Below, piece by piece: positions 7,301 through 60,998 of a stretch of 64,000 nucleotides of DNA. A program made the translations under genes and the position numbers. The stretch spans positions 248,001-312,000 of the forward strand of contig JAPLKS010000007.1 of assembly GCA_026387915.1 (NCBI GenBank), written 5' to 3'. The DNA comes from Gemmatimonadota bacterium (GTDB lineage Bacteria > Gemmatimonadota > Gemmatimonadetes > Gemmatimonadales > Gemmatimonadaceae). The number at the start of each line of letters is the position of its first letter. The stretch's first letter is position 1. The notes beneath the pieces were generated by a model. The model saw only the letters and a program-made list of their open reading frames with translations, was not told the origin of the DNA and searched no databases.

Positions 7301-7449
7301 AAACAGCCTCGCGTGAGGAGCGTTCAGGGGGGAGACTCTGGCTCCCTCCATACTGGCCCACCGTCGGCCACCGCGCAGTCAGAGGCTTCCTGACACAGCA
7401 CCCCTCACGCGGTTACGACGCGCACAGTTCCTCACGCGCGGATGTCGCG

Positions 7450-9003: not shown

Positions 9004-10452
9004 ATGAATAACCGAACGTACGTTCGTCCCATCCCCGCCGCGCCACCAGGCGTCAGCCGCCGCGACTTCCTTGCGGCCTCCGGTGCGGCCCTTGGCGCCG
9101 CGCTCCCGTTTGGGTCGTCGCTGCCGGCGTTCGGACGCGGACCCTCGGGTGCGTGGAGCCCAAACCCGCTGTCACGTGTAGCGCCCGACCGCATGGCCTG
9201 GTGGCGCGACGCCCGCTTTGGGATGTTCGTCCATTTCGGTCTCTACTCCATGCTCGGCGGCGAATGGGGTGGACGCACTGACTACGGCGAGTGGATTCGC
9301 AACAATGCTAAGATTCCCATTGATGAATACGAAAAACTGAAAGGCCGCTTCAACCCCGTGCAGTTCGACGCCGATCGCATCGCGCGTCTCGCCGCCGAAG
9401 CGGGGATGAAATACCTAGTGATGACCACCAAGCACCACGACGGCTTCAGTTTGTTCGACACCAAGCTCACCGACTGGAGCATCACGCACACGCCCTACAA
9501 AAAGGACATGATGCGCGTGGTGGCCGACGCCTGTCGCCGGCACGGCGTAAAACCGTGTTGGTATCACTCCATCATGGACTGGCATCACCCCGACTATCTG
9601 CCGCGCCGCGAGTGGGAAGCCGCCGGTCGCCCAGCCAGTGGCGCCGAGTTTAACCGTTTCGTGAAATACCTCCACGGCCAGGTGGAAGAGCTGCTCACCC
9701 ACTACGGCGACATCGGCGTCATGTGGTTCGACGGCGAATGGGAAAGCACCTGGTCGCAGGACCTGGGCGGCGCACTCGCCGAACATGTTCGCAAACTCGC
9801 GCCGAACACGCTCATCAATAGTCGGGTGGCGCCGAGTAAGGCGAATGGTCTCGAGGCACAACTCTCCCGCCCCGCGCTCGGTGACTTTGGCACCCCCGAG
9901 CAGAAAGTACCGGACCGCGGACTCCCCGGCGTCGACTGGGAAAGCTGCATCACCATGAACCAGAACTGGGGCTACAACCGCGCCGACCACGACTTCAAGA
10001 GCGTACCCAAGCTCGTCGGGCTACTTGTGGAAACAGCGTCGAAGGGCGGTAATCTGCTGCTCAACATCGGCCCCACTGGCGAGGGCGCTGTGCCCGCGGA
10101 GAGCATCGAACGCCTCGGCGGGATTGGCCGATGGATGCGGGCGCACAGCGAATCCATCTACGGCACGCAGGCCTCGCCCTTTGACGGGGTGCCGTTCAAG
10201 GCCACGCGGCGGGATCGTCGGCTCTACGCGTTTCTTCCCGAGTGGCCGACGGAGCGCGAGCTGTTACTCCCCGGCGTTCGGTGGTCCGCGGAGCATGTGT
10301 GGATGCTCGGCGATAGCGGCCGGCGGCCGTTGAATGCGAAACTCGAGGACCGCGGTCTTGTGGTCACGCTGCCCGAGAAGCCAAGCGATGCGGTGTGCTC
10401 AGTACTCGCCGTGGAGCTGCCGATGGCCGTACCAGCGACTATCGAGAGCTGA
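9004..10452 (+). CDS. GH29 alpha-L-fucosidase, Tat-exported
   Basis: The 482-residue enzyme starts at ATG 9004, about 10 bases after GAGG, and has a twin-arginine signal (SRRDFL, residues 18-23, then a hydrophobic run). The catalytic barrel follows with WWRDARFGMFVHFGLYS, YLVMTTKHHDGFSLFD, WYHSIMDWHHP and the nucleophile-bearing strand IGVMWFDGEW. LLLNIGPTGEGAVP marks the end of the barrel, followed by a short beta-sandwich. GH29 enzymes release terminal L-fucose from glycans. Export in folded form by Tat is predicted. It faces a second GH29 gene with only ten bases between the stop codons. Confidence 0.9.
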   Translation: MNNRTYVRPIPAAPPGVSRRDFLAASGAALGAALPFGSSLPAFGRGPSGAWSPNPLSRVAPDRMAWWRDARFGMFVHFGLYSMLGGEWGGRTDYGEWIRNNAKIPIDEYEKLKGRFNPVQFDADRIARLAAEAGMKYLVMTTKHHDGFSLFDTKLTDWSITHTPYKKDMMRVVADACRRHGVKPCWYHSIMDWHHPDYLPRREWEAAGRPASGAEFNRFVKYLHGQVEELLTHYGDIGVMWFDGEWESTWSQDLGGALAEHVRKLAPNTLINSRVAPSKANGLEAQLSRPALGDFGTPEQKVPDRGLPGVDWESCITMNQNWGYNRADHDFKSVPKLVGLLVETASKGGNLLLNIGPTGEGAVPAESIERLGGIGRWMRAHSESIYGTQASPFDGVPFKATRRDRRLYAFLPEWPTERELLLPGVRWSAEHVWMLGDSGRRPLNAKLEDRGLVVTLPEKPSDAVCSVLAVELPMAVPATIES

Positions 10453-10462
10453 GGGGCGCGCG

Positions 10463-11920
10463 TTACGCTCGTTCGTGCCGGTGCACGGACAACCGTGAAA
10501 GCCGTACCGGCCCTATCGACGAGCGGAGCGTCACCGAAAGCCCATGTGCCGTCACGGGTTCCATTCGGTGCAAACGCCGATGCCCAATTGTCGTACCGCT
10601 CGCAATCGGCCGCACGGTGTCGTTGATAATCGCCGACACGGTATGCGACTCTACGGTCTGCCCGTGCGCGATCGCCTCTTGCAAGCTCACCACATCGAAC
10701 GTGACCGGCCGGCCGAACGTGACGATGAACTCAACGGAGTCATTCGGCCCGCGTGCCATGAAGTAGCTGTCGGGGTCACGATCCAGTGCCAGCGCAGGCC
10801 GGTAGGCGCGATCAGTCGGCGCACTCGCAGACGCGGTGGCACCAGCGGCGAGATCGTTCTCGAATAGCGCGCGCATTCGCTCGCCAAACTCGGAGAGCGC
10901 CCGCACATCGCGATCGTGCAACGTCCCACTGGTGCTCGGCGGCACATTGAGGAGCAGATTGGCGTTACGACCTACTGAGGAGAAATACAATTCCTCGAGG
11001 TTGTCCGCGCTACGGACCTTTTCGTTTTCGCTCTCGCGCCAAAACCAGCCCGGCCGAATAGACACATCGGCCTCCCCCGGTCGCCACACGGTACCGCTGG
11101 GAATGCCGTGCTGGAGCGCGCTGATAATCTGCGGACCATCGGCGCCTGGGTACGGCACCGCCTCAGGGTCCATAGCGCACCAGTTAGGATCGCCGGCCAC
11201 GCCGCGCTCGTTGCCCATCCAGCGGATATCCGGCCCAGCGTCGCTGAACATCAGCGCATGTGGTTGCAAGCGGCGCACGGTGGCGTGCACGCGCGGCCAA
11301 TCATATTGCTGCCGCTTGCCGTTGGGGCCCTCACCGTTGGCGCCATCGAACCAGACTTCGGTGAGCGGGCCGTAGCGGGTGAGGATTTCGGTGAGTTGCT
11401 GCTCGTAGAAATCGTTGTAGCGCGGCGAATCGCCGTAGCGTGGCTCGTGACGATCCCACGGAGAGAGATAGAGGCCCGCGCCGAGTCCGTCGGCGCGGCA
11501 GGCGTCGGTGAACTCGCGAACGACGTCGCCATCTCCGTTTCTCCATCCACTCGACTTCACCGAATGCGCGGTAGTTTCGGAGGGCCAGAGGCAGAAACCG
11601 TCGTGGTGCTTGGCGGTGAGCACCACGGCCTTGAAGCCCGCCGCCTTTGCCGCTCGCGTCCACTGCCGAGCGTCGAGATTCGTTGGCGCAAAGGAGCGGG
11701 GGTCTTCCTTGCCGTCTCCCCACTCGCGCCCGCTGAAGGTGTTGACGCCGAAGTGGAGGAAGAGCGCGCGTTCCTGGCGCTGCCAGCGGAGCTGATCTGG
11801 GGTAGGGACGGCGTTAACGACGCGACGCGACACGTCCTGGTCCGCACGCAACGCGCGCCCGACAACGACTGCGCCGATCGACGTCGCTGTGCGCAGGAAG
11901 GTTCGACGGTTTAGGGGCAT
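10463..11920 (-). CDS. GH29 alpha-L-fucosidase with C-terminal F5/8-type domain, Tat-exported
   Basis: The start ATG 11920 places a twin-arginine motif at residues 4-9 (NRRTFL), followed by a hydrophobic stretch. The GH29 barrel shows FLHFGVNTF, AVVLTAKHHDGFCLWPS, GLYLSPWDRHEP and the nucleophile strand EVWFDGANGEG. The C-terminal region, about 130 residues, reads as a discoidin / F5/8-type carbohydrate-binding module (DPDSYFMA, VEFIVTFGRPVTFDVVSLQE). The motif set is closer to the GH29-B subgroup (more selective for alpha-1,3/1,4-fucosides) than the facing enzyme. It follows the alpha/beta hydrolase gene by 13 bases, so the two are probably cotranscribed. Confidence 0.88.
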   Translation of the reverse strand: MPLNRRTFLRTATSIGAVVVGRALRADQDVSRRVVNAVPTPDQLRWQRQERALFLHFGVNTFSGREWGDGKEDPRSFAPTNLDARQWTRAAKAAGFKAVVLTAKHHDGFCLWPSETTAHSVKSSGWRNGDGDVVREFTDACRADGLGAGLYLSPWDRHEPRYGDSPRYNDFYEQQLTEILTRYGPLTEVWFDGANGEGPNGKRQQYDWPRVHATVRRLQPHALMFSDAGPDIRWMGNERGVAGDPNWCAMDPEAVPYPGADGPQIISALQHGIPSGTVWRPGEADVSIRPGWFWRESENEKVRSADNLEELYFSSVGRNANLLLNVPPSTSGTLHDRDVRALSEFGERMRALFENDLAAGATASASAPTDRAYRPALALDRDPDSYFMARGPNDSVEFIVTFGRPVTFDVVSLQEAIAHGQTVESHTVSAIINDTVRPIASGTTIGHRRLHRMEPVTAHGLSVTLRSSIGPVRLSRLSVHRHERA

Positions 11921-15624: not shown

Positions 15625-17457
15625 TTAGGCACTCGTCTCTCGGATGACTTGTTCGAGCGTCGTCACACCCTTCAGAACTTTCAGCCAGCCGTCCATGCGC
15701 AACGTCAGCATGCCGCCGTCCACCGCGCACTCACGAATTTCGGCGGCGCCCACATTCTGCAACACGAGCTTTCGCAGCGCCGGCGTCATGGTCATCACTT
15801 CGTACAAACCCTGACGCCCCTTGGTGCCGCTGCCACTGCACTGTTCGCACCCACGACCGCGGTAGAATGGCAGTTCGCCGATCGTCGTATCGAGCGACAA
15901 GTTCACCAAGAAGGGCGCCGCGTCCTTGGTGGCGTTCTTCTTGGCGCCATCGAGTGCGACCTCATTGAACCGCAGCTCGCGCAACGTCGTCGTACGCGTC
16001 ACCTTGGCGGCATCGAGCTCGAGATCGTCCGGAGTGTACTTCTCTTTGCAATTGCCACACACGCGGCGCACAAGACGCTGCGCCAGCACCAGATTGAGCG
16101 CGGAGCTGACATTGAACGGCTCGAGCCCCATGTCCATCAAACGCGTTACCGTTTCCGGCGCCGAGTTGGTATGGAGCGTGGAGAGCACCATGTGCCCCGT
16201 GAGCGCGGCCTTGATGGCAATGCCGCCGGTCTCAAGATCGCGAATCTCACCCACCATGATGATGTTCGGGTCCTGCCGCAGAAACGCTTTGAGCGCTGCC
16301 GCGAACGTCATCCCGATTTCATTGCGCACGAGCACCTGATTGATGCCGTAGATGTTGTACTCCACGGGATCTTCGGCGGTCATGATGTTCGTGTCGATCG
16401 AGTTGACCTTCGACAGACACGAATACAGGGTGGTGGTTTTGCCCGAACCCGTGGGGCCAGTGACGAGCACCATCCCGTAGGGGTTCGACACCGCCTCCAT
16501 GATTTCTTTTTCGGCGTGCGGCTCAATGCCGAACTTCTCGAGATCGAGCGTCAGGTTGCCCTTATCGAGAATTCGGAGCACGACCTTCTCGCCGAAAATC
16601 GTCGGCAGGGTGCTCACGCGGTAATCGATAACCTTCTTGCCCATCTTGAGCTTGATGCGCCCGTCCTGCGGCACGCGACGCTCGGCGATATTGAGCGCGC
16701 TCATAATCTTGAAGCGTGACACCAGCGCCGCCTGCATCTTCTTGGGCGGCTTCATGATTTCGGTGAGTTCACCATCAATGCGGTAGCGCACGCGAATGTC
16801 GTGCTCAAAGCATTCAAAGTGAATGTCGCTCGCGCCCTTCTTCACGGCATCGGTCAACAACGCGTTGATGAGCTTCACAACCGGCGCTTCATCCATCTGC
16901 GCGGCCAGCGCGGCGCTGTTGTCCTCTTCCTTGGTCGTCTCTACGACTTCGAGATCTTCCTCCGTCTCCATGTCCGCAATGTCGTCGAGCAACGACGACA
17001 TCTGCGTGTCGGCTGCCTCGAAGATCTTCTCGAGCGCGTTGCGGAGCGTGAACTCTCCAGCAATCACGGGGAAGATGTCGTAGCGCGTGATGAACTTGAG
17101 GTCGTCGATCACCGCGAAGTTCGTGGGATCGGCCATCGCGACGGTCAGCGTGCGCCCGTCGCGCTTGAGCGGCAGCACCAAGTTTTTCAGCGCCAAGTCC
17201 GCCGGGATCATCTTCACGATCTTCGGGTCGAACTCGAACTTGGAGAGATCCACCGCCTGCATTTTGTACTGGCGCGCCAGCGTGCGGATGAGGTCGATTT
17301 CTTGAATCGCCCCAGCCTTCACGAGGTTGTAGCCCACACGCGACCCACTGGAGCGCTGTTCGAGTAGCGCCGCATCAAGTTGGTCGCGCGAAATCAGCCC
17401 CTCTTTGAGGAGGAGGTCGCCAATGCGTTCACCAGAGGTCGCTACGGGAGATGCCAT
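15625..17457 (-). CDS. pilB: Type IV pilus assembly ATPase
   Basis: The 610-residue ATPase (from ATG 17457; an in-frame ATG at 17505 would add 16 residues) powers pilus extension. It has a T2SSE_N / MshEN-type N-terminal domain (RIGDLLLKEGLISRDQL, then VDLSKFEFDPKIVKMIP), a linker, and a GspE core with Walker A GPTGSGKTT, TAEDPVEYNI, Walker B IIMVGEIRD and STLHTNSAPE. Two zinc-binding CxxC pairs (VCGNC and EQCSG) are visible in the C-terminal third, as usual for PilB. It comes before pilT and pilC in the same direction and probably forms an operon with them. Confidence 0.95.
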   Translation of the reverse strand: MASPVATSGERIGDLLLKEGLISRDQLDAALLEQRSSGSRVGYNLVKAGAIQEIDLIRTLARQYKMQAVDLSKFEFDPKIVKMIPADLALKNLVLPLKRDGRTLTVAMADPTNFAVIDDLKFITRYDIFPVIAGEFTLRNALEKIFEAADTQMSSLLDDIADMETEEDLEVVETTKEEDNSAALAAQMDEAPVVKLINALLTDAVKKGASDIHFECFEHDIRVRYRIDGELTEIMKPPKKMQAALVSRFKIMSALNIAERRVPQDGRIKLKMGKKVIDYRVSTLPTIFGEKVVLRILDKGNLTLDLEKFGIEPHAEKEIMEAVSNPYGMVLVTGPTGSGKTTTLYSCLSKVNSIDTNIMTAEDPVEYNIYGINQVLVRNEIGMTFAAALKAFLRQDPNIIMVGEIRDLETGGIAIKAALTGHMVLSTLHTNSAPETVTRLMDMGLEPFNVSSALNLVLAQRLVRRVCGNCKEKYTPDDLELDAAKVTRTTTLRELRFNEVALDGAKKNATKDAAPFLVNLSLDTTIGELPFYRGRGCEQCSGSGTKGRQGLYEVMTMTPALRKLVLQNVGAAEIRECAVDGGMLTLRMDGWLKVLKGVTTLEQVIRETSA

Positions 17458-17581
17458 CTGACTCTTAAGGCTCGCTGTCGGGCGTACGGGAGCCGGAGCC
17501 AGCACATCTATAGAGATAGTGCGTGCACTGGCCCGGATTTGTGAAGCTGTCCGGCGGCAAGAGTCGTGTCAAGGACGCGCG

Positions 17582-18397
17582 TCACGGTCGCACTCCACCG
17601 TGCCCCGCCCCCCTCCTTCGCGACTCTCCCGCACCCTCCTGACGGGGTGCCAGCGAAAACGTCACGAGCGGCTGAAGTCGCTCCGCCAGTCGAGCTCCGA
17701 CCCCTCGTACCCGCCGCAGCCCTTCGATCGACCCGAATGGCCCTCGGACTGCCCGGTCCGCCACAATCGCCCGAGCCAGCGCGCTGTTTACATAGGGGAG
17801 GCGCTCGATGTCCGACACGCCGGCGATGTCCAGATCGACGCTCGGCCGAGCGGGCGAGAGCGGCACCACACCCCCCGAGGTGAAGGCCCGAATCTCGCTA
17901 CGGCGGGCCTGATCGCGGGCTCGAATCGCCGACCCCGCACGCGCCTCAGCTTCCGCCGACCACTCTGCCGCCGTCCAGCGGGCGGAATCCTCTCGCGCCA
18001 TGCGCCGGCGGTAGGCCGCCCGCGGGTCACGGTCGGCGGTGGATTCCGGGGGTTGGACTACAGCCGAGCCCCGTCGCCGGCTGGTTGAGGAGGCACCGGA
18101 CTCGTCCGCTCCGGCGAACGGATTGGTGCGTCTGCGGCCGGACGCCCGAGCCGCGTCGCGGGACGTACCGACGGTGTCCGCCCCTCTCCGGCCGCGACCA
18201 CCCGCTCGTGGGCGCCTCCCCCCGCCCGCCGCGACCGCCGAATCGACCGCCTCGATCTGACGAGCCAAGGCCTCGCCGCCTGACGCCAAAACAGGCGCCC
18301 GCTCGGCCTTCCATTCGCGCCAGCCTCGCGCGGTGACTCCCAGCGCGGCGAGGCTGGCCAGAAAAATCAGCGCTTTGCGCTCTCCCGGTGTCGGCAT
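17582..18397 (-). CDS. Helix-hairpin-helix protein, ComEA-like, membrane-anchored
   Basis: The 271-residue protein from ATG 18397 has an N-terminal membrane segment (residues 9-24), then a long low-complexity Ala/Arg/Gly/Glu region. At the C-terminus is a helix-hairpin-helix domain (VDLDIAGVSDIERLPYV, then AIVADRAVRGPFGSIEGLRRVRGVGARLAERL). That tail resembles ComEA, the DNA receptor used in natural transformation, although the usual N-A/V-N-T opening is degenerate. It lies directly upstream of pilB-pilT-pilC, which fits a role in pilus-linked DNA uptake. It could also be a general HhH membrane protein. Confidence 0.75.
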   Translation of the reverse strand: MPTPGERKALIFLASLAALGVTARGWREWKAERAPVLASGGEALARQIEAVDSAVAAGGGRRPRAGGRGRRGADTVGTSRDAARASGRRRTNPFAGADESGASSTSRRRGSAVVQPPESTADRDPRAAYRRRMAREDSARWTAAEWSAEAEARAGSAIRARDQARRSEIRAFTSGGVVPLSPARPSVDLDIAGVSDIERLPYVNSALARAIVADRAVRGPFGSIEGLRRVRGVGARLAERLQPLVTFSLAPRQEGAGESRRRGAGHGGVRP

Positions 18398-18459
18398 GGC
18401 ACGAGCATACCGCGCAAGCGCCAACCCATTGTCACCAAAACCCCGCACGCGCCATCGCG

Positions 18460-19419
18460 CTAACGCACCAACGCCACCGCTACATCCCCCACCACCTTCA
18501 ACGACTTCGCCGAGAGCTTGTCCATCGTGTCGTTGGTCGTGTGATGGTAGTTCGGCCCGCCCGAACGCGACTGCTCGTTGGGATACTCGAGGTCGATCAC
18601 GTCAATCACGCGCAACCCGGCACGAATCAGCGGAATGTGATCGTCCGTGATCGTGTCGCCGACGCGTGGACTGAAGTACTCCTCGTAGCCCATCTCCTTG
18701 GCCTGCGCCCACACACGCTGCACCACTTCTGGCGCGGCCTTTATCGAATTCACCTCCTGAAGCATTCGCAGCTCTTTGTCGCCAATCATATCAAAGAGCA
18801 CGCCGAACATTGGCGTGTAATCGGGCGACGGCAGATGCGTGGCGAAATACTCTGAGCCAATCAGCACGTCCACATCTGGCGGACCAAACTCGCCCCAGTC
18901 CTCGCCGTCTACGAAAAGCAGGTCCACGCCGACATTGGGCGGCAGACGCTTGAGTTCGTCGGCCAGCGCGAGGAACAAGCCAACACCGCTCGCGCCGTCA
19001 TTCGCGCCGTCAAAAGGCTTCGTGCGATTGGATTCAATCGGGTCAGAGTCCGCCACGGGGCGCGTGTCCCAGTGCGTCACATACAACACGCGATTCTTTT
19101 CGTTAGGTCGAAAGCGCGCAAAGATATTGCGCATCGGCAACTTTCGTCCGTCGGCCGTGGTGTGCGTCCACGTTTGCTCCAGCACCGTATCGGCCGTGGC
19201 ACGCAACCGTGCCACCATCCAATCACCGGCTTTGCGCGCAGCGTCGGTGCCGGGAATGCGTGGGCCAAACGCGACGTTCTGCCGCGCATAGCTCAGCGCA
19301 GAATCGGCGTTGAACTTGGTCGATGCGCTCGAGGATGACGCCTTGTCTCCGCCGCCGCACGCCGCCGAGAGGAGCGCGAGGAGTCCGAGGCCACGCGCGA
19401 GGGCTGTGTGTTTGGTCAC
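18460..19419 (-). CDS. M28-family glutaminyl-cyclase-like lipoprotein
   Basis: The GTG start at 19419 overlaps the sprA stop by four bases. The 319-residue product has a lipobox (LSAAC, Cys21), so it is probably a lipoprotein on the periplasmic side of a membrane. The zinc-hydrolase core shows THWDTRP, FDGANDGASGVG, FVDGEDWGEF, FDMIGDKEL, TDDHIPLIRAG and HHTTNDTMD. The DGEDW, DDHIP and HTTND series is what distinguishes glutaminyl-peptide cyclotransferases from aminopeptidases within M28. The predicted reaction is cyclisation of N-terminal Gln to pyroglutamate. All eight Sec-signal proteins in this window are predicted to expose Gln at their mature N-terminus, which supports this. An aminopeptidase is the alternative. 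Confidence 0.8.
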   Translation of the reverse strand: MTKHTALARGLGLLALLSAACGGGDKASSSSASTKFNADSALSYARQNVAFGPRIPGTDAARKAGDWMVARLRATADTVLEQTWTHTTADGRKLPMRNIFARFRPNEKNRVLYVTHWDTRPVADSDPIESNRTKPFDGANDGASGVGLFLALADELKRLPPNVGVDLLFVDGEDWGEFGPPDVDVLIGSEYFATHLPSPDYTPMFGVLFDMIGDKELRMLQEVNSIKAAPEVVQRVWAQAKEMGYEEYFSPRVGDTITDDHIPLIRAGLRVIDVIDLEYPNEQSRSGGPNYHHTTNDTMDKLSAKSLKVVGDVAVALVR

Positions 19420-22400
19420 CGCAGTTCTCCGGCATAAAAGGCAATTTGAAGCACCGCCGACAACACAATCTGCGTGATACGGCGGTTGAGGTTCGTGTCA
19501 AAGGTCACGATGTGGGCGCTCTGCAATGAGAACGTGAGGTTCTCGTCCACGCTCGTGTCTGCATTCAACGTAATGGCCCGACGGCCGTTGTCGGCGAGCC
19601 GACTGCGCGTGCCATTCGCCAAGTCGCTGATCAGCCAAGTGCTCGCCGCCTGCTGCTGCCAGCCGAACCGCGCGCGCAATGGGCTGCGCAGCTCCCACGC
19701 GGCGGGGAGCGGGAAAGTGCGCGAGAGGTCTGCTACAAACTCTCGGGTCTTGCTGTCAGCAATCGTGCCGGGGAGCGAGTCCAGTCGGTACGTCGTCCCC
19801 ACAGTGACCGACCCGCGCAAATGTCCAGGCTCGGCGAACTCCACATTTGCCCCGAGCGGATAACTCAGCGTGCGCGACGTGCGCACATCACTGGGCGACC
19901 CCAGCACGGTACCCGGCATCAGCGAACGCTGCTTGGTGAGCGCGAGTCGCGCCGACCAGCCGATGGTCGTAATCCAATCCTCGAGCAGGCGCGGGTGCAT
20001 GGTCGCGCGCAGGGTGATATCGGGAAGGGTGAGTTGCTCACCATCCACCACCGTCTCGCTCTGATCGGCGCGACGCAGCCAGTTGCGCGACGCCACGCGC
20101 CGCGTGGACGCATCGAGCGTCAGTCCCGCCGGCAAGCGCAAGCCGGTGTGCAACGCGATCTGCGCATTGCTCCCGGCCGTCGTCGCCATACGATCGTGAT
20201 CGCGCAGGTAGCTGTCGAGCCCCGACAATCCAAACTGATAGCCCAATCCCGGCGTGAACGGCGTGCCGTCAAACGCGGAGGTGAGCGACCGATTGTACGT
20301 CACGTCGATCGGCAGCAGCGTATTGAACACACGCGCGCGATGCGCCGAGTCGGTGACCCAACTGGCCGCAATGCGCGCGAGGTCCACCTGCGCACCACTG
20401 TTGAGTTGTTGCAGCGCGGTAATGCGGCGCGGCAAACGATACACGCCAATGGAGTCTTGCTCGCGCAGAATGTTCGGCGAGTTCGGGTCACGCAGCAACC
20501 CATAACTCGTAATCAACTCCGCGCGCGGCCGCAGCCAGCCGCGCAACTGAGGCACAAAGCGATAATTGGAACTCACGTAGCGTTCGCGTTCGAGCCCTTG
20601 AATACCGAACAGCGAGGTCCGCTCCGCCGTGGCGGTGGCCGTGCGCAATGAGGTATCGCCAAAGGCACGAAGGTCGCGACTCGACGCCACTTCCCAGCGC
20701 GCGTCCAGTGCATCGAACGGACGAAGTTCCAGCGACGCCGAGTTGCGCCAGAGATTCGTGAGGCCGTTGACGGTGCGCGCGGTGTCCGTGAGGGCGTCGG
20801 CGGGCTTGGTAAAGCTGGACCGTGAATCGTCACCCTTGGCGTAGTTGGCACTCAACCGGAACGCCGCCGGCGACGCGCGATATTGGGCCCCGCGCAGTTC
20901 CTGCACCATTTCCGAATTCGCCATCCAGGCCGGCAACCCGGAGAGCGCCTGCTCCCACCAGCGCGGCATCGCGCGGCGCTCACTTTCACCGGCGCCCACG
21001 AGCCAGTCCACGCCCGCCGTGAACATGGCGCTGTGACCGCTCTGGAACTCCGACTGCTGCGTGCCCGTGTTCATCGCCGACGTCACGACAATGTTATTCA
21101 CAATGGGCGCGAGCCAACCGCTTTCGAGCGGCGTCGCACGCCGAAGTGAGAGCGCGACCGTCGTCACATCGGCCCGCGGCGAACGGAGCCCCGCGATTTG
21201 ATCGGCTTTGATATCGGAGCGCGTAATGAAGTTCTGCGTGTTGGCCGTCGACGAATGCGTCACGGTCATCGGCATCGACAAGCCAAGCCCCGGCGCCACG
21301 CGGTCGAGGCGCACGGTTGAACTCACGTCGAGCGTATTGTCGCTCACATTGGTCGGCACTTCGGCGAGTTGCCGGAAATTCGGATCGCGGTGCGAGAGCG
21401 CCATGTGCATGGTGCCCAAGTCTGCGGCCGCCACGTCAAAGCCCACGTGCCCGGCATACCCTGGCGTATTCACGACATTCGCGAGACGAATGTCGTCCAC
21501 CCACACTTCGAGCGTGTCGCCGGCAAGAATGCGGCTCGCGCCGACGCCGCCGGAATCCACGCGCACAATGCCGACGGCGAGTTCCTGCACTGCCGCCAGA
21601 TTGGGCGGACTCACCGCTGGGTCCACCGTGTACACGATATAGCCATCCGCACAGGCGGCACGCCGACGCGACGACTGACCGAGCGGTATGCCGCTCGCCA
21701 CGATGAGCACCGAATCCACGCCCGTGCACGAAATGGAGTCGGGGCGATTTTGCAGATACGAGTTTTGCAGCTTCGCACGCAACGCAATGAGCTTATCGAA
21801 ATCCACCCGCACTTCGGGGAGCCAAGTGGCTTGTCCGCTCCCCGAGTTCACGGGCGTGCGGTACGCATAGAAGTTGTCGGCGTCGCGTCCGATCTTCACA
21901 TAGAACTGCAGTTCGCCGTTCTGCCCCCAGCCATTGCCGCGGCCACGCGCCCAGGCGCGCAGCTCCTTGTATTGCTGAAAATTCCGTGCGCCCTCAGGAA
22001 ACCGATAATACGCTTCGGCGCGTTCGTACTTGCCGAGCTGAGTGGCCGTCAGCCGCAACGAGCGTTCGTTGATCACGAGACGCTGGTTCTGCACACCCGT
22101 CACCCGAATGTCTGCCTGATCGACGACGCCTGGCGGCGACTCATAGATCAGACCGCTCACGCTGTCTTTGTCCTGCGTGCCAATGGTGCTCGCGAGCACC
22201 GTGCCAAACGATGACCGCTCGCCACCAATGCCAGCCACCGAGCGGTCAGAGCGGCGTAGCCAGGGCGCGCCACGCAGCTTGAGTCCGGCAATCGGCGTCT
22301 GACTGAATGCGTTATCCGGCAGCGCCTCGCCCGAGATCATCGTCAGTCGCATCGCCCGCACACGGCGGACGAGCGGACCACCATTGATTGTGTCCATCGG

Positions 22401-25400
22401 CGCGGCAAACGGCAGACGCACGAACACCCAGCAGACACTGTGCGGCGTGCCCGCGGTATCTACCGGCGAACTGTCGCACCCGCCAACGCGTGAATACGCC
22501 TTGGAGTCGGACAGGTCCACGACGTAGCGGAACAACCGCTCTTGCTCGCGCTGCGCCGAATCAAAGTTGAGCACGGCGTCGTTATCAATATCCCATTCGT
22601 CGAGTCGCCCGTTGTGCACCGTGCAGTTGTTCTTGGTGTCACCAATTAGGGCGAGCCGCGTGTTGGTGCGAGAGCACACCGGGAAATTCACCAGCGTCCC
22701 TGCGCTGTCAGGCGACGCGAACAAGAGCCGCGGCACCACGTCGCCAGGGAGACCGTTGTCGTTCTTCTCCACGTTGAACGCGCGCGAGAACGGATCGCGC
22801 TCCGTCTGCAACGTGTCGCGACCATAGATCGCGCGCCCCGAGAAAATGGAATCCGCGTTGAATCCGCTCCCCGTCACGAGCAACTGGGTGGGGCCAATCG
22901 CCACCGTGTTCTCGGACACATCGCCCACGTCAAAGACAAACACCGGATTCTGCCGACGGCGCGCAGCGGCCGTGTCCACGCGCACCCAAAATTCAAGATT
23001 GTCTACGCGCGAGAGATCCGCCCCCGCCGCACCGAGCGACTGGCGAATCGAACGCCACCGTCGGCCGCTCGGCGCGCCAGAAATGTGCCACTGATATTTG
23101 TTCTTCACGTCGCGGTACGCGCCGCCCACCGACAGCGGGTACAGCGTCAGCCAGAGCACATTCTCCGGCGCTTGTAGGACGCCGTTGGTCACATTCACCA
23201 GCGGATCAATCTGACTCAGCGTCCAGGTGACCGGCGTGCCAAGCCCCGACGCGCCATTGTTCTGCCAAGCGAGTGTAGAGGCGCGTTGCAGGTCGAGCGT
23301 GAACGAACCACCCACGCGCGCCGCGAGCTTGCGACCGAGCGCAGGCTGACTCGAGTACTGCCAGTTGGGGTCGAGTAGCGTGAGGCTTGTCACGCCAGCA
23401 TCGCCCTCAAATGCTTCGAGATACGCCTGCGACGACGCGCCGAACTGCGGCCGGCTCATCGCCACCTCTGCCTCCACACGCAACCGCGACGGCACCTTGG
23501 CATTCACACCCTTGAGCGCGCCGAGCGCCCGCGAGAGCCCCGGCGCGTCAAACGAAAACCCACTATTCAGCCCAGCAATAAACGATGACTGACTCTCATA
23601 GCCCAGCGTCGGTCGCGTCAGGTTGGTCCCCTGCCGCTGACCGATCGCCATAAAGTTTACATCGCCATTCCGAAATGGCAGCGACGACGCAAAGCCCACA
23701 ATCGACGTCGGCGTACTCGGCGCAAACGTCGGATTTTCTTCGAAGCGCGCCGTCACGGTGCGTGGGCGCGCAAAAAGCGAATCGGGATGCAAAAAGGTGA
23801 CGATGCCGATTTCGTATTCAATCGAATAATCACGATCGCGCTTGAGCGCACTGCCGTCGTCGAGCGTCAGATGCTCGGAGAACGGACGAATCTGACTCAC
23901 ACCCAAGGCGAGGGTGGAGTTGCCCGAACCACCGTCCGACTGATACGACAACCGCAGGCGATACACACTCTGCGGGTGCTGCGCCGAATACAAATACTCA
24001 CTCGGCGCTGTATAAATCGCGTCGTTGGCTGGGTTCCCCGCTGGCTGCGCGAATCCCGCGCGCGCAAAAGGCTGCAGCGACGGAAACACCACAAAACGAT
24101 CGGCCGCCACACGCGTACTGGCCGAAAGGCCAATGGCGGCGACGGGATCGCCAGGGCGCGGCCAGAGTCGGTTTTCTCCGTCGAAGGACGACGGATTGGA
24201 GAACTGCGCCAGCCCGTACAGTTGCAGAAAACTCGCGGCGTTGCCGGCGAGCGGCTTTTCCTGCGAGTAGGTAGCGCCGGTGAAGATGCCAAGCGAGACA
24301 GTTTCGCGCTGCACGTCGTCGCCCCCCACGCGGTACACCGAGCGAATTTCGCGCGCGAACGCGGCGTCACCGGGGCGCACATTCGGATCCCACAGCAGGC
24401 TCGCGTACTGCTCGCGCGCGGTGTACGACACATCGGGCGTGCCGCCTGTGGTGGTGAGCGTGGTGTCGCGGCCATTGAGGCGTACGGTGTAGGCCACCAC
24501 AAGTCGCTCCGACGACGGCGAGAGCGGCTGCCGCAAAAACACCCAGAGCTGCGACGGGTCCACCACGTAATCGACGTTCTCGCGCAGGAGCTCGTACACC
24601 TGACCACGGCGCGACGAGGGATCGCCGATCAGACGGAACTGCGGGCCATTGGGGTTTGACGGCTGACCGCCGATCAACAGTCGGTAGAGCGCGACCTTTA
24701 CCGGCCGCAATGAATCTGGGAGCGCGGCCGCCAACTGCCGGAGGCGACCCCCGTTGAGAATGTCGATGTTCGGGTAGCCGCCGAGTCGGCGCGGATCCAC
24801 CGTAAAGAAGAATCGGCGCGCTTCCACTTCGTAGTCGCTCACGTCGCGCGTCACCGATTGACGCGACCCCGCAGCGCCAACGGTGTAGCGCCGGTCGCGC
24901 ACAATATTCCCCGACTGCTGCGCCACAATGCCGCGCATACCGAGACGACCAAACTGCGCCACCGCCTGCACCCCGTAGTTCCCCTGCGGAATGCCACTGC
25001 TAATAAAGCGGCTGGCCGGCGCCTCAAACGCCACATTGCCGACGTCCACCCGCTGCAACCACTCGCCCTTTTTCCCCTCGTAATAGAGCGAGAGGTTGTT
25101 CGACGCGGTCACCATCTCGCGCTTGGAGTCGTAATCCATGTTCACGTGAATGCGGTCGGCCACCGTGCCGCCCGTTTTCACGTCGAACTGAAAGTTGAAA
25201 TCCGGGCGGAAGCCGTTATTGCACCCCGTGGTACCGCTCACAAAGAAGCTCGTCACGCACCGTTCGTTGGTGGTGCGGTTGAGCTTGCTCTCCAAGCGCG
25301 CATTCAGCCGGAACCCGAGGTCAGAGCCCGGTCCGAACACCGATGCGGCCCCCGGGAGTGCCGGTTTGAGGGCACTGCGCCCCGCGGCGGAATCCGCGCG

Positions 25401-25520
25401 GAGCTTGAGGCTGTCCCCACGCGCCTTGACCGAATCCGCCCCCGCCTGAGCGCCCAAAAGGCGCGCGGCGACGACGAAAAGGAGGGCGAGGGAAAGGCGG
25501 AGGGGTGGCAGTGGGCGCAC
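19416..25520 (-). CDS. sprA: SprA-family giant outer-membrane protein
   Basis: The product is about 2,034 residues. GTG 25520 is preferred because AGGG lies five bases upstream; TTG 25523 is also possible. A signal peptide ends LLGA|QA (Gln first). The sequence is beta-rich throughout and resembles SprA/Sov, the 36-strand translocon of the type IX secretion system. Shared features include the region around YEGKKGEWLQRVDVGNVAFE, the FISSG and FGRLGMRGIVAQQSG segments, the repeated LRVEAEV/FSFDAPG strands, and a C-terminus of alternating strands ending YAGELR. Bacteroidota SprA is longer (about 2,400 residues). A GTGA overlap joins it to the glutaminyl-cyclase-like gene. It probably acts in protein export across the outer membrane, but no other T9SS component is in view. 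Confidence 0.82.
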   Translation of the reverse strand: MRPLPPLRLSLALLFVVAARLLGAQAGADSVKARGDSLKLRADSAAGRSALKPALPGAASVFGPGSDLGFRLNARLESKLNRTTNERCVTSFFVSGTTGCNNGFRPDFNFQFDVKTGGTVADRIHVNMDYDSKREMVTASNNLSLYYEGKKGEWLQRVDVGNVAFEAPASRFISSGIPQGNYGVQAVAQFGRLGMRGIVAQQSGNIVRDRRYTVGAAGSRQSVTRDVSDYEVEARRFFFTVDPRRLGGYPNIDILNGGRLRQLAAALPDSLRPVKVALYRLLIGGQPSNPNGPQFRLIGDPSSRRGQVYELLRENVDYVVDPSQLWVFLRQPLSPSSERLVVAYTVRLNGRDTTLTTTGGTPDVSYTAREQYASLLWDPNVRPGDAAFAREIRSVYRVGGDDVQRETVSLGIFTGATYSQEKPLAGNAASFLQLYGLAQFSNPSSFDGENRLWPRPGDPVAAIGLSASTRVAADRFVVFPSLQPFARAGFAQPAGNPANDAIYTAPSEYLYSAQHPQSVYRLRLSYQSDGGSGNSTLALGVSQIRPFSEHLTLDDGSALKRDRDYSIEYEIGIVTFLHPDSLFARPRTVTARFEENPTFAPSTPTSIVGFASSLPFRNGDVNFMAIGQRQGTNLTRPTLGYESQSSFIAGLNSGFSFDAPGLSRALGALKGVNAKVPSRLRVEAEVAMSRPQFGASSQAYLEAFEGDAGVTSLTLLDPNWQYSSQPALGRKLAARVGGSFTLDLQRASTLAWQNNGASGLGTPVTWTLSQIDPLVNVTNGVLQAPENVLWLTLYPLSVGGAYRDVKNKYQWHISGAPSGRRWRSIRQSLGAAGADLSRVDNLEFWVRVDTAAARRRQNPVFVFDVGDVSENTVAIGPTQLLVTGSGFNADSIFSGRAIYGRDTLQTERDPFSRAFNVEKNDNGLPGDVVPRLLFASPDSAGTLVNFPVCSRTNTRLALIGDTKNNCTVHNGRLDEWDIDNDAVLNFDSAQREQERLFRYVVDLSDSKAYSRVGGCDSSPVDTAGTPHSVCWVFVRLPFAAPMDTINGGPLVRRVRAMRLTMISGEALPDNAFSQTPIAGLKLRGAPWLRRSDRSVAGIGGERSSFGTVLASTIGTQDKDSVSGLIYESPPGVVDQADIRVTGVQNQRLVINERSLRLTATQLGKYERAEAYYRFPEGARNFQQYKELRAWARGRGNGWGQNGELQFYVKIGRDADNFYAYRTPVNSGSGQATWLPEVRVDFDKLIALRAKLQNSYLQNRPDSISCTGVDSVLIVASGIPLGQSSRRRAACADGYIVYTVDPAVSPPNLAAVQELAVGIVRVDSGGVGASRILAGDTLEVWVDDIRLANVVNTPGYAGHVGFDVAAADLGTMHMALSHRDPNFRQLAEVPTNVSDNTLDVSSTVRLDRVAPGLGLSMPMTVTHSSTANTQNFITRSDIKADQIAGLRSPRADVTTVALSLRRATPLESGWLAPIVNNIVVTSAMNTGTQQSEFQSGHSAMFTAGVDWLVGAGESERRAMPRWWEQALSGLPAWMANSEMVQELRGAQYRASPAAFRLSANYAKGDDSRSSFTKPADALTDTARTVNGLTNLWRNSASLELRPFDALDARWEVASSRDLRAFGDTSLRTATATAERTSLFGIQGLERERYVSSNYRFVPQLRGWLRPRAELITSYGLLRDPNSPNILREQDSIGVYRLPRRITALQQLNSGAQVDLARIAASWVTDSAHRARVFNTLLPIDVTYNRSLTSAFDGTPFTPGLGYQFGLSGLDSYLRDHDRMATTAGSNAQIALHTGLRLPAGLTLDASTRRVASRNWLRRADQSETVVDGEQLTLPDITLRATMHPRLLEDWITTIGWSARLALTKQRSLMPGTVLGSPSDVRTSRTLSYPLGANVEFAEPGHLRGSVTVGTTYRLDSLPGTIADSKTREFVADLSRTFPLPAAWELRSPLRARFGWQQQAASTWLISDLANGTRSRLADNGRRAITLNADTSVDENLTFSLQSAHIVTFDTNLNRRITQIVLSAVLQIAFYAGELR

Positions 25521-25665
25521 CAAAGCCCTGGTTCAGGGTATCTACCACCTTGCCTGAAGGTGGTCGCCGAGTGGAATATACGACTAGCTCAAGACGCTAC
25601 AACCCTTTGTGGTATGCGGAGTTCCTGCCTTTTCGCGGCCTCCGCCCGCCCCCTGCCCTTCCCGC

Positions 25666-27174
25666 TTGAAAATCGTCACCAAGTACATCCTCAAAGAGCA
25701 CGTGGGACCGCTGGTGTTCGCCCTCTCGGCGCTCACCTCGCTCCTTCTGTTGAATTACGTCGCCAAACGGTTTGGCGAGCTCGTCGGCAAGGGGCTGCCG
25801 GGGAACGTGATCGCGGAGTTTATGCTCCTGTCGATCCCGTTCACCATCGCCATGACCCTGCCGATGGCCGTGCTCGTGGCCACCCTCCACGCCTTTAGCC
25901 GGATGGCGGCCGAAAACGAGATTACGGCGTTCAAGGCCAGTGGGGTCTCGATGCGTCGGCTCATGGTGCCGGTGATTGTGGTGGCCAGTTTCCTGACGCT
26001 CGGCATGGTCGCGTTCAACGACCAAGTGCTCCCCGCCGCCAACCACCGGCTCAGTACGCTCTCCAACGACATCGCGCGCAAAAAGCCGACATTCGCACTG
26101 CGTGAGCAGGTGATCAACGAGGTCGTGGCTGGCCGCCTCTTTTTGCGGGCCGCGCACCTGACGCGCAGCTCCAGCCAGATGCGCGACGTCACCATTTTTG
26201 ACTTGACCGACCCGCAGCGCCGACGCACTGTCCGCGCCGACAGCGGCACGCTCGCCCTGTCCAACGACGGGCGCGACCTGATGCTCACGCTGTACACGGG
26301 GAACGTGATTGAGCTCGCCCCGAACGAAACCCCCACGCGGTTGCAGCGCAATTTCTTCCGCATCAACCACGTGCGCGTCCGCGGCATTGGCAACAGCCTC
26401 GAACGCGATACCGTGGGCGGCGAGAAAGGCGACCGCGAAATGACCATATGTGAACTCGACCGCAAAGTGCGGCGCGCGGGATTCGTGCGCGACAGCGCGT
26501 TCGCGCAGCTCAAGCGGCTCGACCCCGCCGAATACAAAAAGACCCCGCGCCGCCCAATCTCGCGCGGTATGGGCAATGTGTACTGCGGCTTGGTCTACTG
26601 GTGGACCGATCTCCGCTTGGTGAAAACCGCGCACGCCGCCGCGATGGCTCAGAAACCAGCGCCGCCCGCTGACGACTCCAACACCCCACGCCCACTCCCC
26701 CCTTCGGCGGGAGTCCTTCAACTCACCCCCGAAGTGATGGGGGACGCCTCCACCCGTTCCGTCCTCGCCGAGCAAGTGAAGATCTCCATCGCGCAGGCGC
26801 AAGCGATGATCGACGGCAATCAGGTGGAAATCGAAAAGAAGTTTGCCATTTCGTTCGCGTGCGTGATTTTCGTGCTGCTCGGCGCCCCCGTCGCGCTGCG
26901 CTTTCCGCGCGGGGGCGTTGGCATGACCATCGGCGTGAGCCTCGGCGTGTTCGGCCTCTACTACGTCGGCCTGATTGCCGGCGAAGATCTCGCGCGGCGC
27001 GGTATGATCTCGGCGTTCTGGGCCATGTGGACGGCGAATATCATTTTCTTTCTCGCTGGAGCCGTGCTCACCGCTCGCCTCGGTCACGAGGGCACCACGA
27101 GCCGCGGCAGTGAGACCGGCGAGTGGTGGGGACGGTTGATGGACCGCGTGCGCCGTCGGGAGCGTGCCGCATGA
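25666..27174 (+). CDS. lptF: LptF/LptG-family LPS export permease (first copy)
   Basis: The protein is a YjgP/YjgQ permease with three membrane segments at each end and a periplasmic beta-jellyroll between them. The best start is TTG 25666, giving KIVTKYILKEHV as in the family; GTG 25609 would add 19 Pro/Ala-rich residues. There is no clear ribosome-binding site for either. At 502 residues it is longer than usual (about 360), because of an insertion around residues 265-400 that includes ISRGMGNVYCGLVYWW and a Pro-rich stretch. With LptG it forms the transmembrane part of the LptB2FG exporter that moves lipopolysaccharide to the outer membrane. Its stop overlaps the next start (ATGA). Confidence 0.88.
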   Translation: MKIVTKYILKEHVGPLVFALSALTSLLLLNYVAKRFGELVGKGLPGNVIAEFMLLSIPFTIAMTLPMAVLVATLHAFSRMAAENEITAFKASGVSMRRLMVPVIVVASFLTLGMVAFNDQVLPAANHRLSTLSNDIARKKPTFALREQVINEVVAGRLFLRAAHLTRSSSQMRDVTIFDLTDPQRRRTVRADSGTLALSNDGRDLMLTLYTGNVIELAPNETPTRLQRNFFRINHVRVRGIGNSLERDTVGGEKGDREMTICELDRKVRRAGFVRDSAFAQLKRLDPAEYKKTPRRPISRGMGNVYCGLVYWWTDLRLVKTAHAAAMAQKPAPPADDSNTPRPLPPSAGVLQLTPEVMGDASTRSVLAEQVKISIAQAQAMIDGNQVEIEKKFAISFACVIFVLLGAPVALRFPRGGVGMTIGVSLGVFGLYYVGLIAGEDLARRGMISAFWAMWTANIIFFLAGAVLTARLGHEGTTSRGSETGEWWGRLMDRVRRRERAA

Positions 27175-30065: not shown

Positions 30066-33000
30066 TTAGAACGTGTACTTCAGCGAGAACTGCATGCGGT
30101 AGCTGGACGCCGCATTCTGATCGCTGGCGAAGAAGAACGTCGGGCTGAAGGTGTACTTGGCCCGGGCACCGAGTCCGCCGGCACCGAGTCCGTCCTTCGT
30201 GATCATCGAGCCCGCTTCCTTCGACGAATACGAGAGCAGGTTCGTCGAGCCGAAGCCAGACGAGGGGTAGGAACCCCACGCGCGGTTGAGCAAGTTGGCG
30301 AAGTTGAACACGTCCCACTGGATCAGGAGGTTGTTCAGTTCCGTCTTCTCTGCACCCTTCCACAGCCCACCGATCAGTTTGCCAACGCGCTGGCGAACCG
30401 AGAGGTTGACCGTGTGGTGGAACGGTTCGGTGCAGCTGTTGCGCTTCATGATCGTGCCCACCTGAGTGGCCAGGCAGTGGTTGTTCTTGATGAACGAGTC
30501 GAGCGCATCCTGCTGCTGGGCAATGGTGACCGACCCGTTGGCCACGAAGATGATTTCGCTGGAGTCGCGCACGTTCTTCGGCACATAGATGTTGTCGTTG
30601 CCGATGCCGTCGCCGTTCATGTCGCCGCTCGACGAACCACCATACGTGTAGTGGAAGCGCTGGCCGCTCTCGCCGATGTAGATGAGCGAGATGTCCGTGC
30701 CCGTCGGCTGGAACGTGTACGACGAGTTGAACACAATACGGTGAGGCGTTTCGAAGATGGAGTGACCAAGATCCATCACGTTCTGCGCCACATTGCCGTA
30801 CGACTTGCCGAACTGGTACTGCGACACGGTCGTGGACGACGTAAGGCTCTGCACGTCACGGGCGACCGTGTACGTATAGAACAGCGAGGCCTCGAAGTTG
30901 TCGGCGTAGCGGCGCGTGAGCCCGCCCGTCAACTGATACGAGTAATCCTTGCTCGAGTTGGTGATTTCATACACCTGCGTCTTGCTGTACCCGCCGCTCG
31001 TCGTGGCGGTGGTCGGGTTGTACGTGCCGCCCACGCGCACCTGGTTCAGCGGCGCCGGGCCGTACATCACGCGGCCGTAGCGATCCACACCCTGCGGACC
31101 AGACAACGCGATGTTCTGATAGAAGAGCTGATTCAAGCCCATCGAGTACAGCCCTTCGAACGTCGCCACGTAGCCGTTACCAAGGTCACGGTCGTAGCCG
31201 AGCGTGAAGCGCGAGCTCTGCGGGAACTTGAGATCCTTGGACGCGAGGTCGACTTCCGAACCCGCGGCGGCCGTGAGGCCGCTGCCGGCGCACGCCGTCG
31301 GCGGCGAGGACACGGCACCAGCGCTGAACACCGGCGGCTTGTTCGTGGTGTTGTTGCAGGTCAGCTGAGCGTAGCCCGAGAGACCGGAGTTCTGGTACTC
31401 GTTGGACATCCACACAAAGGCCGGCTGGCCAGTGAAGATGCCCCAGCCGCCGCGCAGCTGATTGCGACCGTCGCCCGTCACGTCCCAGTTGAAGCCGATA
31501 CGCGGCGCGACCTGCCAGTTGCCACTCGGCAGCTGGGTGGTGTTGCGCTTGAGCGTGTCGAGAATGCTCTGATTGAGCGGCGGCGCATCGTCAAAGAACG
31601 ACGCATCGGCGCGCAGACCGTAGCTCACCGTGAGGCGGTTGGTCGGCGTCCATTCGTCCTGCAGATAGAAGCTGTGCGTCCGCTGATGGAAGCGCACCGC
31701 ACCGTCGGTGCCAGCCGCAGCCGGCACACCAACCTGATACGACGACGCGACCGGCGAACCGCCGCAGGTGGCGCAGGTGCCCGCGAGCGAGTCGAGCGAG
31801 TTGAACTGCCAGAAGCCGTAGCGGTTCTGACCAAACAAGTTGCGGACCTTGAACCACTGGTTCTGCGTGCCGATCGTGACGCGGTGATCGGCGCCCATCG
31901 GAATCACGAGATTTTCCGTGATTTCGTACACGTCCTGATCGAGCTGGTTCGCCTGCGACGAGCGCTCAGCGCCCGACACCAGGGAAACCGCCGTGGTCGT
32001 GCGGGCCTGCACCTGCGGGGTCGTGTTCGGAATGAACGTCACGCGCGCATCGCGAATGTGCGTCAGGCCGAGGTAGAGTTCGTTGTACGCGCCGTTATTG
32101 AACGCGCTCTTGAGCTGTGCCACCCACGCGCTCTTGTCGGACTTGAACGTGTAGCCGTTGTCGCTGAGGGCAAAGAGACCCGTCGAGCCGCGGCTGAACA
32201 CGTCCTGTTCGGCGTGGCCGTAGTTCTCACGCAACGTAAGCGTGGAGTTGAACGGCAGGCCGTGGATGTCGATACGAGCGAAGAGGTTCTTGAGCGGGTT
32301 GATGTTCCCGCGGGCGTCGCCGTTGCCAGCCTTGATGCCGAGCGGCGAGAGCAGCCCCTGGAAGCGCGAGAGATCGGTGCCCGACGGGATCTGCGACACC
32401 GTGAAGGGTCCGCCCATGAACGGGCCCGTTGCCGGGTTGCCCTGTTCCTGGAACTCGGGGTTGATAAAGAAGAACACCTTGTTCTTGATGATCGGACCGC
32501 CGAGCGTCACACCGTACTGCGACTGACGATACCAGCCGAGGAACGACTGCTTGCGCGTCCACGACGAGTCGCGATAGTAGCCGTACATGCTGCCGGTGAA
32601 CTGGTTGCCACCGCTCTTCGTCACGGCGTTCACGAGCAGGCCGGAGAAGTTGCCGTAGCGCACATCGTACGGCGAGAGCAACACCTGATACTGCTTGACC
32701 GACTCAATGCCGATCGACTTACCGCCAGCCTGACCGCCAGGCTGACCCGTGGACCCAAGACCGAACATATCCTTTTCGGTCGAGCCGTCGATCTGAATGT
32801 TGTTGTAGCGGTTGTTGGCGCCGGCGCCCGAAAGACCCGGGCCAGAGCTCGAAACCTGCGGCGTCAACGTCACGAAGTCCGTGAAGTTGCGGTTCAGCGT
32901 CGGAAGGCGACGCATCGCCGAATCGGTGATCGTCGTGCCGACGCCGGTCTTTGACTGCGTGATCACGGCGTCCGCCGTCACCACCACGTTGACTTCGGTC

Positions 33001-33356
33001 AGGAGCGCAGCCTGCGCCTTGAGCGAAATATCCACGCGCGTCGTCTGGCCAACCGTTACCGTCTGATCGCCGCGCGTCACCGGCGAAAAGCCGATGCGAC
33101 GCACCGTCACCGCGTAGCCGGCGCCGACTTCGAGACCGAGGACGACATAACGTCCGTCGGGACTCGTTGCCGAGCCACGCACGATTCCAGTCTCCTTGTT
33201 GGTGACCTGAACCTGGGCGGCATCAACGGGATTCCCTGTAGCATCAGTCACGCGACCAGCGATCGTGCCGGTGGTGACCTGTGCGCTCACGCTAGTCGCA
33301 AACGTCGCCACTGCGACGAGCGCGACGAGCAGCGCGTTCCAACGAAACTTGACCAT
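30066..33356 (-). CDS. TonB-dependent receptor with carboxypeptidase-regulatory domain (Oar-like)
   Basis: The 1,096-residue outer-membrane protein starts at ATG 33356 and has a signal peptide ending SVSA|QV (Gln first). An N-terminal CarboxypepD-reg beta-sandwich (about 26-115, TIAGRVTDATGNPVDAAQVQV) precedes the plug (TDSAMRRLPTLNRNFTDFV, then NNIQIDG) and a large beta-barrel that ends with the terminal Phe typical of porin-type barrels (SLKYTF). There is no evident TonB box. This architecture matches the Oar-like receptors common in FCB bacteria and Myxococcota. The imported ligand is unknown; no cognate SusD gene is adjacent. Its own promoter region lies at 33357-33437. Confidence 0.93.
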   Translation of the reverse strand: MVKFRWNALLVALVAVATFATSVSAQVTTGTIAGRVTDATGNPVDAAQVQVTNKETGIVRGSATSPDGRYVVLGLEVGAGYAVTVRRIGFSPVTRGDQTVTVGQTTRVDISLKAQAALLTEVNVVVTADAVITQSKTGVGTTITDSAMRRLPTLNRNFTDFVTLTPQVSSSGPGLSGAGANNRYNNIQIDGSTEKDMFGLGSTGQPGGQAGGKSIGIESVKQYQVLLSPYDVRYGNFSGLLVNAVTKSGGNQFTGSMYGYYRDSSWTRKQSFLGWYRQSQYGVTLGGPIIKNKVFFFINPEFQEQGNPATGPFMGGPFTVSQIPSGTDLSRFQGLLSPLGIKAGNGDARGNINPLKNLFARIDIHGLPFNSTLTLRENYGHAEQDVFSRGSTGLFALSDNGYTFKSDKSAWVAQLKSAFNNGAYNELYLGLTHIRDARVTFIPNTTPQVQARTTTAVSLVSGAERSSQANQLDQDVYEITENLVIPMGADHRVTIGTQNQWFKVRNLFGQNRYGFWQFNSLDSLAGTCATCGGSPVASSYQVGVPAAAGTDGAVRFHQRTHSFYLQDEWTPTNRLTVSYGLRADASFFDDAPPLNQSILDTLKRNTTQLPSGNWQVAPRIGFNWDVTGDGRNQLRGGWGIFTGQPAFVWMSNEYQNSGLSGYAQLTCNNTTNKPPVFSAGAVSSPPTACAGSGLTAAAGSEVDLASKDLKFPQSSRFTLGYDRDLGNGYVATFEGLYSMGLNQLFYQNIALSGPQGVDRYGRVMYGPAPLNQVRVGGTYNPTTATTSGGYSKTQVYEITNSSKDYSYQLTGGLTRRYADNFEASLFYTYTVARDVQSLTSSTTVSQYQFGKSYGNVAQNVMDLGHSIFETPHRIVFNSSYTFQPTGTDISLIYIGESGQRFHYTYGGSSSGDMNGDGIGNDNIYVPKNVRDSSEIIFVANGSVTIAQQQDALDSFIKNNHCLATQVGTIMKRNSCTEPFHHTVNLSVRQRVGKLIGGLWKGAEKTELNNLLIQWDVFNFANLLNRAWGSYPSSGFGSTNLLSYSSKEAGSMITKDGLGAGGLGARAKYTFSPTFFFASDQNAASSYRMQFSLKYTF

Positions 33357-60493: not shown

Positions 60494-60587
60494 GCGGCGC
60501 TCTTGTTGGGAGAGGAGCAGCAAAGGTATCCTCTTGAACAGCAGGATGCACCGCGTCCATGCTCTCACGCTTTTCGGAGTCTTTCCC

Positions 60588-60998
60588 ATGCGCCCACTGT
60601 CTGCCTGTCTTTTGTTTGCGCTCGTCGCGACCGCGCACCTCGACGCGCAATCCACCACGACTTCGAACACGACAGCCGTCACGCCCAGCGCCGCGACCGC
60701 CACCAGTACTCCGACGGAACACGTCGTCGCCACGCCATCCGCCAATGTTGCCGAGCCAATCGCGACGCGCCCAGCGGGTCCGTCGCTCGCCAGCGAACGC
60801 ATTGGACTCACGGAAGCGGCGCCGGCGCTGACGCCGCCAGCTCCGCGCCGCACCGACACGTCGCGCAATCGCGCGCTGATGATCGTCGGTGGGGCGGCGC
60901 TCGTCGTGGGCGCGGTGATCCGCGGGACGCCCGGCACGTTGGTGATGTTGGGCGGAGCCGTGACCGGCTTGTACGGGCTGTACAAATTCCTCGAGTGA
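60588..60998 (+). CDS. Secreted protein with Thr/Ala-rich region and C-terminal membrane segment
   Basis: The 136-residue product starts at ATG 60588 with GGAG eight bases upstream. The signal peptide ends HLDA|QS (Gln21 first). A low-complexity Thr/Ser/Ala/Pro stretch (about 22-90) follows, then a Gly-rich hydrophobic segment (RALMIVGGAALVVGAVI, then LVMLGGAVTGLYGLYKFLE) that looks like one or two membrane or glycine-zipper helices. Its TGA overlaps the GTG of the patatin gene. Function unknown. Confidence 0.75.
   Translation: MRPLSACLLFALVATAHLDAQSTTTSNTTAVTPSAATATSTPTEHVVATPSANVAEPIATRPAGPSLASERIGLTEAAPALTPPAPRRTDTSRNRALMIVGGAALVVGAVIRGTPGTLVMLGGAVTGLYGLYKFLE

Follow-up and report, generated by a model that had tools for sequence, protein, structure and literature searches.

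Glutamine at the start of exported proteins and a predicted glutaminyl cyclase in Gemmatimonadota: a probable Q-rule outside the Bacteroidota

The closest known parallel is the Q-rule of the Bacteroidetes (Bacteroidota), under which most exported proteins begin with glutamine (Gln). On average, 71% of the signal peptidase I (SPI) substrates in this phylum have Gln at +1, and in P. gingivalis the rule is an essential, proteome-wide N-terminal modification. Two unrelated types of glutaminyl cyclase (QC) are found there, the animal type in 574 cases and the plant type in 507, with both present in 63 (PMC5837995). The rule has been described as applying to “not the entire FCB group” and as occurring “exclusively in the Bacteroidetes phylum” (PMC5837995; PMC10653852). 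The Gemmatimonadota lay outside the scope of these papers (Bochtler et al. 2018, PMC5837995; mBio 2023, PMC10653852), and no report of a Q-rule or of pyroglutamate at mature N-termini in Gemmatimonadota was found among openly licensed papers.

The Gemmatimonadota resemble the Bacteroidetes in several ways. Gln comes right after the SPI site in most exported proteins, a QC is a lipoprotein, and two unrelated QC types seldom occur together. They differ in belonging to another phylum, in having some lineages that show Gln at +1 without either QC, and in that cyclisation is deduced here from sequence. A Bacteroidota-like Q-rule, pyroglutamate formation included, is the best explanation of the observations below and a probable one. 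The window, that is, the whole 64,000-nucleotide stretch of DNA that was analysed (G000:C7:248001-312000), lies in a Gemmatimonadota source genome of 3.58 Mb in 23 contigs. Its relevant features are the following.

18460-19419, minus strand: M28 type II glutaminyl cyclase (P0001), predicted lipoprotein, LLSAA|C (phmmer, model, active-site residues)
19416-25523, minus strand: SprA-like outer-membrane translocon, LGA|QA, site 25457 minus (TIGR04189, 585 bits)
17582-18448, minus strand: helix-hairpin-helix (HHH, ComEA-like) protein, conserved neighbour downstream of the QC (PF12836, synteny)
15625-17505, minus strand: PilB-like type II/IV secretion ATPase, conserved neighbour (PF00437, synteny)
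25666-27174, plus strand: LptF/LptG permease, directly adjoining the QC in SprA-less genomes (PF03739, synteny)
3-1475, minus strand: DUF6259 protein, signal peptide TAAA|QQ, site 1427 minus (PF19773)
1487-2707, minus strand: NamZ exo-beta-N-acetylmuramidase, signal peptide APA|QG, site 2653 minus (PF07075, PF20732)
6260-7351, minus strand: exported protein, LYA|QD, site 7243 minus, no Pfam family matched
30066-33356, minus strand: TonB-dependent-receptor-like outer-membrane protein, VSA|QV, site 33290 minus (PF25183, PF13620)
48163-48690, minus strand: small exported protein, ALA|QQ, no Pfam family matched
60534-60998, plus strand: small exported protein, LDA|QS, site 60639 plus, no Pfam family matched
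62255-64000, plus strand: S9/DPP-IV-like peptidase, LAA|QS, site 62303 plus, runs off the window (PF00326, PF00930)

A preliminary description of the window had named eight proteins in which an A-type cleavage motif precedes Gln, and all eight are present in the context of exported proteins. Seven of its exact strings lie near ORF starts, and the eighth (ALA|QQ) was read directly. As it had also said, the eight differ in function, with Pfam placing NamZ, DUF6259, the TonB-like barrel, and the S9 peptidase in unrelated families. The check that it proposed, the +1 residue of the genome against background, was carried out on 852 kb of the source genome, window included. Candidates had to have one membrane span, a basic n-region, and a hydrophobic core; lipoproteins were excluded, and all Gln+1 counts rest on a home-made signal-peptide finder other than SignalP. 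A first predictor, blind to +1, underestimates Gln since it bars charged c-region residues (e.g., ARA|Q, LRA|Q), so it was replaced by a motif count, in which [AVSTGLI]-X-A is located in the c-region and the following residue tallied, all +1 letters being weighted alike.

By this count, Gln stands straight after the motif in 98 of the 179 candidates, against 24.6±4.1 (maximum 34) in shuffled sequences. The counts of other residues at +1 equal or come close to those in shuffled sequences (A 69 vs 67, S 31 vs 28, P 38 vs 27), and the position itself is special, since Gln at +1 to +6 past the motif numbers 98, 33, 35, 17, 29, and 43. With the window proteins removed, the count is still 94/168. 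Even the predictor blind to +1 put Gln there in 39 of 100 proteins, compared to 4% Gln at +4 to +20, and many of its misses, when read by eye, have a Gln site a few residues on. The EM estimate of Gln at +1 in this genome is 0.89 (0.73-0.92). All EM figures come from a run with -3 and -1 fixed, as free EM over-fitted small sets; the EM posteriors use Gln themselves, so the 110/114 obtained from them is non-independent. A control of multi-pass membrane proteins (n=22) was too small to be useful. The claim that Gln begins every exported protein was too strong: the enrichment is far above chance, but some exported proteins elsewhere lack it. Likewise, the two Tat proteins of the window had been said not to follow the pattern. 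Those at 9004-10452 and 10466-11920 in the window have no Gln after the likely site, but this is no rule, as three Tat-like N-termini in the sample (L092:1694, L056:10764, L078:15361) do have Gln after an A-type site.

In Gemmatimonadota, the Gln+1 signal is genuine and extends across the phylum. It was counted in kin genomes, so the data are non-independent, at 37/72 (shuffled 9.8) where there is a type I cyclase only and at 28/56 (shuffled 7.3) where there is a type II QC without SprA; the f7/g44 and f9 genomes were left out. Homologues of the exported proteins mostly retain Gln+1 from genome to genome, and SprA has it in all seven copies read from seven other Gemmatimonadota. The same motif count gave 35/101 (shuffled 6.4; EM 0.70) for Bacteroidota loci, 3/35 (shuffled 2.8; EM 0.09) for E. 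coli, 8/48 (shuffled 2.7) for Sinorhizobium pSymB, and 25/125 (EM 0.24) for the pooled Proteobacteria. The megaplasmid of Cupriavidus metallidurans, a betaproteobacterium (L202, L206-L209), is moderate in Gln+1, with 15/47 (shuffled 4.9).

The M28 lipoprotein had been read as bearing QC motifs, and it is indeed QC-like in sequence and predicted structure and in its active-site signature, which its M28 paralogues lack. On these grounds it is very probably a glutaminyl cyclase of the bacteroidal type (type II). In phmmer searches P0001 matched bacteroidal QCs at 1e-55 to 1e-64 (3e-64 to PdQC 3tc8, 2e-61 to PgQC 6qql), with 36-41% identity, and its best aminopeptidase match was 7e-8. Modelling, suggested as a way to tell a cyclase from an aminopeptidase, gave an AlphaFold structure (pLDDT 86.8) nearest to the bacteroidal QCs (6qql; TfQC 6qro; BtQC 7d1d/e) at Z 42-43, with TfQC at 43; the QCs of Fimbriiglobus and an Acidobacteriales bacterium came at Z 36-38 and human and fly QCs, together with the peptidase LapB, near Z 29-31. 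The M28 fold by itself fails to separate QC from peptidase, since LapB (5gne, Z 29.4) scores beside human QC.

The Zn ligands D141, D174, and H293 (PgD149, PgD183, and PgH299) and the catalytic E173 (HsE201) are invariant in 68 QC sequences, and P0001 shares with the bacteroidal QCs an E/D/D network in which D210 (human D248) is kept and D259 corresponds to human D305. The hydrogen-bond network with HsD305 sets QCs apart from M28 peptidases, in which the Asp is not known to occur. D174 and D259 are found in all 68 QCs, and D259 in none of 44 other M28 copies from the source genome and the QC-less genomes; these were compared by alignment, a regex for QC-like motifs having proved useless. In the QC set the third ligand is Asp, the Zn Asp is followed by Gly, and D259 is present, whereas the other copies, like the aminopeptidase YwaD, share the fold and most metal ligands but have Glu as third ligand, Asn or Asp after the Zn Asp, and mostly Ser or Thr at the D259 position. 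Only bacteroidal QCs are reported to have the Asp equivalent to D174 (PMC7948796), and the network containing human D305 is reported to be needed for catalysis (PMC10435661).

P0001 also departs from the bacteroidal enzymes. Val replaces PgW193, His replaces PgW298, no residue corresponds to PgF294, and the insertion loop is shorter. Since His at the PgW298 position is also seen in Cytophagia-type Bacteroidota QCs (L021-L028, L031), this aromatic was not taken as defining. Both groups share the lipobox (SAA|C in P0001), which most Gemmatimonadota QCs carry, but the latter form their own branch in the tree (support 0.95), with their gene in a neighbourhood of lptFG, sprA, HHH, and pilB.

Another cyclase takes the place of this one in many relatives. 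Among 121 Gemmatimonadota genomes, the type II QC is found in 85, the unrelated type I cyclase (PF05096) in 42, both in 13, and neither in 7. The two replace one another (Fisher 1e-11, indicative only, as the genomes are related), and do so within family f5 as well (96 genomes: 49 type II, 31 type I, 6 both, 22 neither; Fisher 2e-5). The type I copies of genus g4 that were read at the N-terminus have a lipobox. Such replacement of unrelated enzymes independently supports cyclisation as their common job. In family f5, neither cyclase was found in any sampled member of g42 (3/3) or g91 (5/5) (G034, G095, G156, G160, G169, G175, G183, and G187). Assembly gaps were discarded as the cause, every sampled member being without both families. 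Nor was a QC signature found in the M28 copies aligned from G034, G095, G035, G160, and G169 (a few G160 and G169 copies excluded). Gln+1 persists without the enzymes: the QC-less G034, G035, and G092 together have it in 42/101 (shuffled 9.4), and G034, the sole g42/g91 member measured, in 22/50. Thus, Gln+1 has no strict need of a known QC. These lineages may have a third cyclase, or a habit that outlived its enzyme, or Gln+1 for another cause. It is possible, although less likely than not, that a third, unrecognised cyclase acts there or that Gln (or spontaneous pyroglutamate) was functional before the enzyme; if so, the Q-rule would be ancestral to a wider group, and the cyclases would have joined later and been exchanged repeatedly.

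The cyclase-less genomes also lend weight to a different account, in which Gln+1 is a preference of the lineage’s signal peptides or signal peptidase (a LepB subsite, charge, or folding), most Gln N-termini are left uncyclised or form pyroglutamate spontaneously, and QC has few substrates. The Gln+1 of Cupriavidus and the scattered high Q-values outside the Bacteroidetes (PMC5837995) fit it too. However, at least one of the two unrelated, interchanging cyclase families, many members of which have a lipobox, is kept by 114 of the 121 genomes, a retention that would make little sense for a marginal reaction. Gln+1 is also slightly lower in the QC-less genomes than in the source genome (p=0.046), a difference that is non-significant against QC-bearing members of their own family. 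This account is therefore unlikely, with some chance left to it. Far less probable is an aminopeptidase role for the M28 lipoprotein, in which it would trim mature N-termini and its link with Gln would be a coincidence. Family membership, the undiscriminating fold, and the replaced PgW298 aromatic are compatible with it, but the top matches are all bacteroidal QCs (E 1e-61 vs 1e-7 for peptidases), and it is set apart from all 44 other M28 copies by its third-ligand Asp, a Gly following the Zn Asp, and D259 in place of Ser or Thr.

The least credible account, largely refuted and given hardly any chance, makes QC and SprA a single outer-membrane export system in which pyroglutamate is required for transport. 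The preliminary description had linked the Gln+1 modification to outer-membrane export through SprA, and what it noted about the genes themselves is sound. The GTG of the QC lies within a 4-nt overlap with the end of sprA (ctgcgGTGAcc), and a search for the pair in relatives, which it had proposed, found sprA directly ahead of qc in 22 of 30 QC loci. The link itself does not stand, since each gene has been lost independently from a fixed block, lptF (reversed) followed by sprA, qc, HHH, and pilB. In all eight SprA-less loci examined, the QC is in place beside lptF/lptG, with lptF where sprA would stand; in genus g4, SprA is kept with HHH next to it, and the QC is missing at exactly that spot. 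Families f5 and f9 have sprA and qc at separate places, and Gln+1 occurs independently of SprA. The translocon is shared with the type IX secretion system (T9SS), but profile searches found the GldM/PorM motor in 0 of 13 Gemmatimonadota, namely the source genome and 12 relatives (the same model was positive in 2 of 2 Bacteroidota), and there is at most one weak T9SS CTD match per genome. The Gemmatimonadota SprA may be a translocon that works alone, driven in another way or carrying other cargo. SprA is one among many Gln+1 proteins, a neighbour and probable substrate of the QC rather than its partner. The authors of the Q-rule argue against a role of pyroglutamate in T9SS sorting (PMC5837995), and the Gemmatimonadota data likewise argue that the cap is unrelated to SprA or such sorting. 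SprA was found in 88 of the 121 genomes.

The favoured explanation, a Q-rule in Gemmatimonadota, would work as follows. Signal peptidase I would cut Sec preproteins after an A-X-A-type motif, baring an N-terminal Gln in most. A membrane-anchored periplasmic lipoprotein QC, of type II/M28 in the source genome and a type I beta-propeller in other Gemmatimonadota, would then turn this Gln into pyroglutamate. Of the proteome-wide modification proposed for the lineage, the Gln+1 pattern and the type II QC lipoprotein are thus in hand, while cyclisation itself is what we infer from them. A second phylum with a Q-rule and the same choice of two cyclases would matter because its lineages have variously lost SprA, one cyclase or the other, or both. 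These are natural experiments on the reason for capping exported proteins with pyroglutamate. The cap may shield mature proteins from aminopeptidases and dipeptidyl-peptidases, which are numerous in the source genome. There are 25 M28-domain matches in its 3.6 Mb, and with so many putative exopeptidases an N-terminal cap could be of use.
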